Part shown: positions 3,042 to 4,358 of the stretch, piece after piece
Layout of the letters: each line of letters opens with the position of its first letter
How positions within the stretch are numbered: the stretch's first letter is position 1
Assembly: GCA_017550775.1 (NCBI GenBank)
Contig: JAFZOA010000263.1
Coordinates: 1-5,963, forward strand
Length of the DNA: 5,963 bases
Direction: 5' to 3'
From: Ruminiclostridium sp.
GTDB lineage: Bacteria > Bacillota_A > Clostridia > Oscillospirales > Ruminococcaceae
The notes under the pieces: model-generated
What the model was told of the DNA's origin: nothing
What the model saw: only the letters and a program-made list of their open reading frames with translations
Databases searched by the model: none
Made by a program: the position numbers and the translations under genes

Positions 3042-3076
3042 TTTATCTCCCCTGTTTCTGTATAGCCGTAAATTTT

Positions 3077-3105
3077 ATTATACTATAATCCGGTATTTAA
3101 TACAA
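3077..3105 (-). promoter_or_regulatory. Sigma-A-type promoter of the three-gene minus-strand operon
   Basis: On the minus strand, TTGTAT (3105-3100) is separated by exactly 17 nt from a perfect TATAAT (3082-3077). Transcription would start near 3070, giving a leader of about 28 nt before the ATG at 3041. It lies after the terminator of the upstream secreted-protein gene, so the operon is independently transcribed. The -35 box is weak (3 of 6), the -10 box is perfect. Confidence 0.75.
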
Positions 3106-3148
3106 GGATAAGACCGTTTTTTTCACACAGTTTTCACAAATCGGGAGC

Positions 3149-3185
3149 AAAAAACGCCCGCGAAGCTTCGGCGACTTCGCGGGCG
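3149..3185 (-). terminator. Rho-independent terminator after the secreted-protein gene
   Basis: An 11-bp perfect stem (CGCCCGCGAAG at 3155-3165 with CTTCGCGGGCG at 3175-3185) and a 9-nt loop are followed on the minus strand by six T (3154-3149). It begins 5 nt after the TAA stop at 3191-3193. No T tract exists on the plus side, so it serves minus-strand transcription only. Confidence 0.94.
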
Positions 3186-3190
3186 GGTCA

Positions 3191-3988
3191 TTATTTGGTG
3201 ACATTCACCTGTAATTTAACTGTTGTCTTATCGAGTGTAGCAGAGATAACGGTCGTTCCCTTTGCCTTTGCTGTTACAAGTCCGTCGGAAGAAACCTTTG
3301 CAACATCTGTCTTTGAGCTCTTCCAGAGAATGTTATCGTCGGTCTCTCCGGATAAGATACCGCTGAGATTGAGTGTTTCGCCGGGCTTGAGGTTTACCTG
3401 TATGCCGGTGAGCTCAACATCGCTCGACGAGGAAGATACATCGCCCTTTACGATAAACGAAACGTTATCGAAGTATGCGTCGCAGTATGTACCGCTGTGC
3501 TTGATCGCATAAAGTGAAATTCTTGCAGTAACTGCTTTCTTCGGGATAGTTCTTGTGACACTTATCTTTGTCCATGTCGCGGATCCGGACATAGCCTTGC
3601 TTGCGGAGTCAAGTACGCTTCCGGAAGAATTTAAAAACTCAACCATTATCATGGACTCGTCGCCGTGACCGTTCTTCCAGTCACGCACATAGGCGGAAAG
3701 CACAGATTTTTTGCCTGCATATTTCTTGACGTTGATATCCTGATATATCCTGCTTCTGCCGGCGGAGCATTCTTCCGATGTAAAGAAATAAGAATCGTAT
3801 GCGCTTACAGAATCAACACTTACGGTGGTGTACCAGCCCGTGGAGTCCGTTGTCCATCTGTTAAGACCGTCATTTGCATTACCGTTCTTTACAAGATTTC
3901 CGCTGTCTGCGCTTGCCGGTACGGTAAAGCAGCACGCAAGCATTGCTGCGGACAGCAGAGCGGCCGCTAATCTTTTGATTTTTGACAT
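3191..3988 (-). CDS. Secreted protein with CBM4_9-like carbohydrate-binding domain and BIG2 domain
   Basis: This 265-residue protein is exported. Residues 1-27 form a signal peptide (basic MSKIKR, hydrophobic core to about 22, cleavage after ASA-27). The cysteines at 19-20 do not make a convincing lipobox. Residues about 30-180 resemble a CBM4_9/galactose-binding jelly roll: it opens with NLVKNGNANDGLNRW, the usual N-x-V-x-NG...W entry, and closes with YFDNVSFIV, the usual DNVS exit strand. A serine linker (SSSSSD, 185-190) leads to a BIG2 Ig-like domain (191-265) with the typical WKSSKTDVAKVSSDGLVTAKAKG core. There is no catalytic, sortase or dockerin motif, so it probably binds glycan or the cell surface without an enzyme of its own. 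The strong AGGAGG (3997-4002) with 8-nt spacing fixes the ATG at 3988. Its codons look more AT-rich than lepA's. A structured leader or small RNA with its own terminator lies directly upstream. Confidence 0.86.
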   Translation of the reverse strand: MSKIKRLAAALLSAAMLACCFTVPASADSGNLVKNGNANDGLNRWTTDSTGWYTTVSVDSVSAYDSYFFTSEECSAGRSRIYQDINVKKYAGKKSVLSAYVRDWKNGHGDESMIMVEFLNSSGSVLDSASKAMSGSATWTKISVTRTIPKKAVTARISLYAIKHSGTYCDAYFDNVSFIVKGDVSSSSSDVELTGIQVNLKPGETLNLSGILSGETDDNILWKSSKTDVAKVSSDGLVTAKAKGTTVISATLDKTTVKLQVNVTK

Positions 3989-4019
3989 TTGAGTGTCCTC
4001 CTCATGTTACATTTCTACG

Positions 4020-4053
4020 AAAATAAAAAAGCGTGCAGCACCGGGCTGCACGC
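4020..4053 (-). terminator. Intrinsic terminator just upstream of the secreted-protein gene
   Basis: The minus strand forms a perfect 9-bp GC-rich stem (GCGTGCAGC at 4053-4045 with GCTGCACGC at 4039-4031) around a 5-nt loop, followed by TTTTTT, A, TTTT (4030-4020). The T tract is on the minus side only. It lies after the inverted-repeat rod at 4204-4075 and 17 nt before the ribosome site of the secreted-protein gene. It could end a small RNA or act as a regulated leader terminator. Confidence 0.88.
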
Positions 4054-4074
4054 CGAAAAATGCAGCTCAATGCT

Positions 4075-4204
4075 GCCACGCAATTTAATTTTCGTTTTGT
4101 TGCAACAACAACTAATAGTGTGCACGAAAAACGCTGCATTTTTACCATGGTAAAAATGCACACTATAGCTGCCCATTATGCAACAAAATATTAAATTACG
4201 TGGC
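4075..4204. repeat. 130-bp imperfect long inverted repeat (possible MITE-like palindromic unit)
   Basis: The left arm (4075-4104) and right arm (4179-4204) are near-complementary: GCCACG with CGTGGC, AATTTAAT with ATTAAATT, and TTTTGTTGCA with TGCAACAAAA. They are interrupted by one mismatch and a 1x5 loop. An inner pair (4115-4124 and 4157-4166) adds 10 bp. No direct duplication of the flanks is evident, so an insertion origin is not shown. The same bases form the predicted RNA rod. Confidence 0.7.
4135..4160. repeat. 26-bp perfect palindrome
   Basis: The 13-bp half-site (4135-4147) is exactly mirrored at 4148-4160, centred on ACCATGGT. In RNA it gives an 11-bp hairpin with a CAUG loop. Its outer TGCA at 4157-4160 is also needed by the upper helix of the rod (with 4121-4124), so the two foldings compete. 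Confidence 0.9.
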
Positions 4205-4210
4205 TCTTTT

Positions 4211-4239
4211 ATAATACCATATTCCGGAAGAAAATGCAA
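4211..4239 (-). promoter_or_regulatory. Extended -10 promoter for the predicted structured RNA
   Basis: On the minus strand, TTGCAT (4239-4234), 17 nt of spacer and TATTAT (4216-4211, 5 of 6) are preceded by TGG, which gives an extended -10 (TGn). The expected start 6-7 nt downstream falls on 4205-4204, the first paired base of the inverted repeat. This coincidence supports the promoter. I see no better promoter for the secreted-protein gene, so it may be served by this one through terminator read-through. Confidence 0.68.
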
Positions 4240-4296
4240 TAGCAACTGAAAATAAAAATGCCCGGAATGTTTTAATGTAAAAATGACATAAAAATC

Positions 4297-4325
4297 TTGC
4301 AAATCCCGGAAAAATATGCTATACT
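4297..4325 (+). promoter_or_regulatory. Sigma-A-type promoter of lepA
   Basis: TTGCAA (4297-4302, 4 of 6), a 17-nt spacer and TATACT (4320-4325, 5 of 6) predict a start near 4330-4333 and a leader of about 27 nt. It is divergent from the promoter of the structured RNA, with 57 nt between the two -35 boxes. The leader holds the 10-nt palindrome TGTCCGGACA (4338-4347) directly before the ribosome site. Confidence 0.75.
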
Positions 4326-4358
4326 ATAAACTGTATATGTCCGGACAGGAGGATAAAA

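Follow-up and report, generated by a model that had tools for sequence, protein, structure and literature searches.

What is the structured element on the minus strand between lepA and the gene of a secreted protein in Ruminiclostridium sp., and which gene, if any, does it serve? In the window, by which we mean the whole 5,963-nt stretch of DNA analyzed here, a sequence-only reading had proposed an undescribed structured RNA at this place. The proposal is borne out, as the element has no Rfam match and its helices covary in 193 copies. Our preferred explanation, to which we assign a probability of about 0.72, is that the RNA acts in cis as a 5′ leader, using transcription attenuation to control the downstream gene for an exported protein. 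Two of our findings go beyond the earlier reading, namely, that the element belongs to a multicopy family and that mutually exclusive helices meet at its terminator.

Judged by its closest LepA relatives, the window is Ruminiclostridium-like Clostridia DNA. On the minus strand, positions 4206-4023 combine a promoter kept across relatives, a long rod, and an intrinsic terminator. Folding of minus-strand 4020-4205 yielded −75.7 kcal/mol versus −49.4 kcal/mol (sd 3.97) for 200 shuffled sequences, none of which folded as well (z, −6.62); the folds of five homologues gave z values of −6.5 to −10.5. The rod itself is thereby confirmed, while its start, previously put at exactly 4204, moves by one position to 4205, where the closing helix P1 begins. 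Similarly, a terminator had been placed at 4053-4020 and is indeed present (4054-4030 in a terminator scan of the window, with 10 pairs followed by a T-run), yet its extent had to be corrected to a stem at 4053-4031 and a U-tract ending at 4023. The features of the element are collected in the table.

Features of the leader element and the gene behind it (window coordinates)
Feature	Position	Strand	Basis or remark
Promoter	4211..4239	−	−35-like TTGCAT, 4239-4234; TG, 4219-4218; −10 TATTAT, 4216-4211; conserved position
P1 5′ arm, closing helix	4195..4205	−	Alignments A7/A8
P1 3′ arm	4074..4084	−	Alignments A7/A8
Variable rod P2/P3 around the apical domain	4095..4188	−	Fold
P4 apical hairpin, GCAUUUUUAC-CAUG-GUAAAAAUGC	4136..4159	−	Alignments; P4 is in the alignment-making model
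Strand A (GGUAAAAAUGCAGC), 3′ arm of P4 and partner of strand B	4133..4146	−	Covariation
GUUUUUCGUGC segment 3′ of P4, U-rich, largely conserved	4122..4132	−	Column conservation
Strand B (GAGCUGCAUUUUUCGG), complements strand A	4053..4068	−	Covariation; window duplex, −14.1 kcal/mol
Antiterminator 5′ arm, overlaps B	4061..4076	−	Covariation; window hairpin, −25.2 kcal/mol
Antiterminator 3′ arm, within terminator	4035..4050	−	Covariation
Intrinsic terminator	4023..4053	−	Stem 4053-4031 (−16.2 kcal/mol), U-tract 4030-4023
Ribosome-binding site AGGAGG	3997..4002	−	Sequence reading
Gene behind the leader, 265 aa, with signal-peptide-like start and Big_2 domain	3191..3988	−	Start codon 34 nt past the RNA model end

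A DNA search revealed a full orthologous copy of the element at a related locus (L002) and, at other places in related genomes, additional copies. With a covariance model built from 6 copies (R1), 20 of 197 genomes drawn from the family were positive at E values up to 0.001. A second model (R2), built from 21 copies and applied at E values up to 1e-4, detected the RNA in 29 of 60 genomes drawn from the genus, 68 of 197 from the order, and 98 of 391 from the class; at the level of the phylum, the one hit among 398 genomes was the center genome itself. In addition, 12 of 40 genomes selected through their LepA locus were positive, some of them already present in the other draws. Altogether, 198 matches were reduced to 193 distinct copies. 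Many copies occur per genome, and because few candidates were scored per genome in the large draws (seven in the class draw), the copy numbers there are lower bounds. The element thus is one copy of a large and apparently unnamed RNA leader family in Clostridia, gut and rumen bacteria included. As to a possible phage origin, a class-level copy was matched in two unannotated phage-labelled fecal records; when two patterns were searched against viral contigs, one had no match while the other matched a single contig. Good RNA copies lie at L311:2075-2233, an unannotated phage-labelled fecal record, and at L312:6410-6581, a viral-contig record, either of which could be bacterial. No plasmid match was found for the window copy.

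The consensus of the family runs, from 5′ to 3′, through the promoter, the P1 5′ arm (UUGCGACACAA, pairing with UUGUGUCGCA), a fairly conserved AAUA segment, the variable rod, P4 with strand A (GGUAAAAAUGC..GCUC), the U-rich segment, the P1 3′ arm, strand B (GGAGNUNUGCAUUUUUCGG), and the terminator, with a ribosome site following in most copies. The rod varies in both sequence and length; its sequence differs between the window and the orthologous copy in L002, and the upper helix is predicted in both.

An extended −10 promoter had been read from the window sequence, whereas a simple sigma-70 scan of the window did not list it, TTGCAT being a poor −35. We nonetheless consider it supported because its positions, counted here from the start of the RNA model, are conserved across copies, rather than through a start-site measurement. 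Among the 193 distinct copies, T at −33 is found in 95%, T at −10 and A at −9 in 91% each, and T at −5 in 93%. By a lenient rule that asked for at least 4 of 6 matching letters and had no shuffled control, a −10 hexamer was present in 179 of the 193 copies and a −35 in 122; TG precedes the −10 in 133, and the −10 ends exactly 4 nt 5′ of the model start in 131. The promoter piece of ∼30 nt also has matches without the RNA at other sites in related genomes (L083, L086, and L087). The window carries a further promoter-like site on the plus strand (4297-4325), with TG before its −10, which lies upstream of lepA and diverges from the RNA.

A check for covarying base pairs in homologues, as the earlier reading had advised, was run on two alignments of 103 copies (A7) and 93 distinct copies (A8), and the helices do covary. 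P1 is paired in 98.1% and 98.8% of cells in A7 and A8, respectively, with changes on both sides in 10 of its 11 pairs. The single imperfect pair of this helix in the window, 4198/4081, had been taken for a wobble that only the minus-strand RNA would tolerate. Indeed, at the corresponding model columns 9/284, C-G is seen in 55, U-G in 42, and no pair in 1 of the 103 copies, as expected of a strand-specific U-G wobble.

The same alignments reveal pairings that compete with one another. P1 together with P4, the latter included in the model behind the alignments, is paired in 96.1% and 97.4% of cells (A7 and A8). The A:B helix and the antiterminator were not part of that model. P1 together with A:B nevertheless reaches 93.2% and 94.2%, as against 36 to 55% when the strands are slid, P1 included; taken alone, the two A:B helices are paired in 100% (2 pairs) and 86.6% of cells in A7, and in 93.5% and 79.1% in A8. 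For the antiterminator, the inner helix is paired in 74.1% and 78.5% of cells with double changes in all 6 of its pairs, whereas the outer helix is weak (63.2% and 52.4%), one of its pairs being open in most copies. Strand A can pair either in P4 or with the downstream strand B. Where its G has changed to A, the P4 partner and B both carry U (31/31 distinct copies); where its U has changed to C, both carry G in 18 of the 22 copies with letters on both sides. Next to A:B, a short GAGC/GCUC toehold is less constant, forming at least 3 of 4 pairs in 120 of 160 gap-free alignment rows, 36 more rows being gapped.

We further exchanged strands between copies in a swap test on 108 clusters, in which B was free to pair anywhere in the interior. 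Cognate pairing came to −17.89 for A:B versus −14.18 (sd 0.26) upon permutation and to −15.79 versus −11.02 (sd 0.28) for the antiterminator, although the copies share kinship, so that shuffles and permutations overstate significance. A cognate preference was also seen for the terminator and P1, while two negative controls stayed at chance. Strand B overlaps the 5′ arm of the antiterminator, and the antiterminator uses bases of the terminator. The three pairings P4, A:B, and antiterminator cannot all form at once, and each shows compensatory change. We regard the family as real and conserved, and its strand-exchange architecture as well supported. In sum, computation supports the promoter, all of the pairings named (P1, P4, A:B, antiterminator, and terminator), the mutual exclusion among them, and the placement of the element in front of genes.

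From this architecture we infer the order of action, which state is on, and that the RNA itself senses a signal. Transcription would begin at or beside P1, and by the time strand B appears, P1 and the P4-bearing rod would already be folded. Unless P4 is kept in place, B would pair with A and displace P4, giving a pseudoknot across P1, an exchange that the toehold may aid in many copies. With A:B occupying the antiterminator arm, the terminator would form, an RNA of ∼180 nt would be released, and the gene would be off. A signal that kept the apical domain in its P4-closed form would instead leave B free, such that the antiterminator would form and polymerase would read into the gene, turning it on. 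The discrete RNA of about 180 nt expected by the sequence-only reading is retained here as one predicted product, though no longer as the sole one, since two are predicted. The energies calculated for the window (−9.1 kcal/mol for P4; see the table for the others, that of A:B being a duplex value with the pseudoknot cost excluded) favor read-through as long as A:B does not form, which suggests that A:B would be the off switch.

If the RNA is a leader, it should lie just 5′ of a gene. Of 172 copies, 131 are followed after 9 to 130 nt by a gene start that has a ribosome site (114 within 45 nt), compared to 41 out of 174 control terminators, that is, other terminators in the same loci judged by the same rule; upstream members of arrays and truncated copies were left out of the 172. 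For the remaining 41 copies, the rule detects no gene start in the 130 nt that follow. Two properties of a riboswitch-type leader are seen, namely, the position before a gene and an expression platform with mutually exclusive helices. By a hydrophobicity rule, 73 of 133 downstream proteins have a signal- or membrane-type N-terminus, as opposed to 21 of 120 control open reading frames (ORFs). Among the families listed for 123 downstream proteins, BspA-type LRR_5 repeats were counted 29 times and the copper amine oxidase N-terminal domain 7 times, and Big_2 domains occurred in 7 of the first 78 proteins scanned, all of these being raw counts; the remaining families are mixed. YpsA-family (SLOG) genes were listed behind the leader in 4 of the 123 cases.

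The RNA had been placed between lepA and the secreted-protein gene, and this location stands. The link, however, is to the same-strand gene downstream rather than to lepA. In a close relative whose LepA is 96% identical (L001), lepA directly follows the upstream block, and both the RNA and the secreted gene are absent (L001:237-385 compared with window 3062-4340); the two have, to judge from this comparison, been gained or lost together at this place. Regulation of lepA was rejected, as the RNA is directed away from lepA and is missing from L001. The window and L002 have the RNA in common, while the proteins behind it are only 29% identical. Similar signal-peptide-like starts are found behind close RNA copies in the window (3191-3988), at L101:785-1471, and at L102 and L105, while the remainder of the proteins differs (one pair compared). 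It looks as if leader and signal peptide had been reused with new cargo. Attenuation through a leader peptide was likewise rejected, because an internal ORF of at least 8 codons with a strong ribosome site exists in only 15 of 193 copies. A toxin ribonuclease gene behind the RNA, as in type III toxin-antitoxin systems, was not seen among the 25 of 52 and 25 of 33 families listed.

Which signal would the leader respond to? The same attenuator could be governed by an RNA-binding protein or another RNA in place of a metabolite, and the conserved U-rich segments GUUUUUCG and AUUUUUCGG could be protein-binding; we consider this version credible, if not the one we would choose.

A more fundamental departure would be an autonomous small RNA acting in trans, in which case promoter, RNA, and terminator would be self-contained, and the gene either uninvolved or reached secondarily by read-through. 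The promoter does sit at a fixed distance in most units, as described above. Moreover, the 193 copies include 17 neighbor pairs in tandem, with gaps of 43 to 493 nt, as in L291:151-1074 (four units, the largest number), L317:6351-6913 (three units), and also L217, L228, L255, and L320, and all five spacers examined contain a promoter. Tandem units that each have a promoter, as well as the gene-less copies, count against a pure leader and fit an autonomous RNA equally. A sequence resembling the reverse complement of the P1 3′ arm lies downstream of 16 out of 38 gene-less copies (the 41 minus L139, L181, and L115) and of 5 out of 151 others, which keeps a role in trans in play. In L215, L191, L236, L284, and other gene-less copies, the complement covers the P1 3′ arm and the start of B and is located 17 to 60 nt past the RNA model end, after the terminator. 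However, this complement hardly favors its own copy (−15.7 versus −15.0; permutation sd, 0.55). Copies from the same genome, which could be assigned for some copies only, come first or close to first among the pairing partners in 2 of 16 cases (L198 and L283) and do not stand out in the other 14. Gene starts right after the terminator are also in excess over the controls, and the antiterminator covaries, for which a plain small RNA has no need. We therefore hold a purely trans-acting RNA to be unlikely. Combining both aspects, the family may represent a new, widespread class of signal-sensing leaders that sets surface and exported proteins of Clostridia by three-strand exchange, with its gene-less copies making RNAs able to pair with other leaders in trans; this wider picture is tentative, and we think it rather doubtful as a whole.

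A repeat selected as DNA, be it a mobile palindrome or the end of a cassette, with no function as RNA, would explain the many copies per genome and the joint lack of RNA and gene in L001, but is disfavored by the strand-specific G-U pairs of P1, by the leader-like layout of promoter, terminator, and ribosome site, and by the covariation of alternative helices, making it very improbable. Hardly any credence is left for a polymerase-binding RNA of the 6S type, which the earlier reading had itself doubted: despite the rod with internal loops, the 5′ end in the closing helix, the similar length, and the lack of another 6S match in 7 of 8 family-positive genomes searched at E values up to 0.01, RF00013 did not match 3985-4260 at E values up to 10, in the eighth genome, G098, a 6S-like locus separate from the family reaches 43.6 bits (Rfam cut-off, 46.4), and a leader present in many copies per genome, mostly before genes, is not a free-standing gene. 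That 6S-like match, just under the cut-off in a family-positive genome, lies at G098:C8:35662-35856 (L321).

The cis-acting leader thus remains our preferred reading, and it matches no established family. None of the covariance models of Rfam 15 matched the element, whether in the window (E values up to 1) or at another 60 loci, part of which overlap (E values up to 0.1). In the lax search of 3985-4260 (E values up to 10), 11 weak matches all fell far below gathering scores, in line with the earlier failure to match the RNA to a known family. By its conserved pairings, the family seems to work like a riboswitch-type transcription attenuator outside the Rfam families, and is likely an orphan riboswitch-like attenuation leader. 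A literature search confined to parts of main texts found no description of it; larger candidate lists exist, for example Weinberg 2017. A survey of structured RNAs in the human microbiome reports 3161 candidates (PMC8040213), which might include fragments of this family; its main text, as far as consulted, holds no description of the family. We thus face a regulatory RNA that is present in about a quarter of the class-draw and about a third of the order-draw genomes given above, often in multiple copies, and yet has no Rfam family name. Its copies mostly precede genes for accessory and exported proteins. Since the unit is compact, from promoter to terminator, and the switch makes sharp predictions (A:B versus antiterminator), its signal and regulon are directly testable.

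Among known systems, 6S RNA (RF00013) is alike in its rod-like outline and length and unlike in family match, copy number, and leader position. T-box leaders are multicopy transcription attenuators with terminator and antiterminator alternatives, and the present family resembles them in both respects. It differs in that no T-box family of Rfam matches the element in the window or the loci scanned, and in that many of its targets are exported proteins. The c-di-GMP riboswitches of Clostridia come close in copy number and in some of their targets: in C. difficile, several such leaders exist per genome, with surface-protein genes among those they control (in part from PMC6200980). Unlike these, the family has no match to the c-di-GMP families of Rfam in the window or any locus scanned, its apical strand is common to P4 and a 3′ pseudoknot, and its tandem units have their own promoters. 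Tandem complete riboswitches, finally, share the repetition of full units before one gene; the passages of that work consulted mention an inter-unit promoter in a mixed adenine/T-box tandem (PMC9481103), whereas here each of the five spacers examined contains one.
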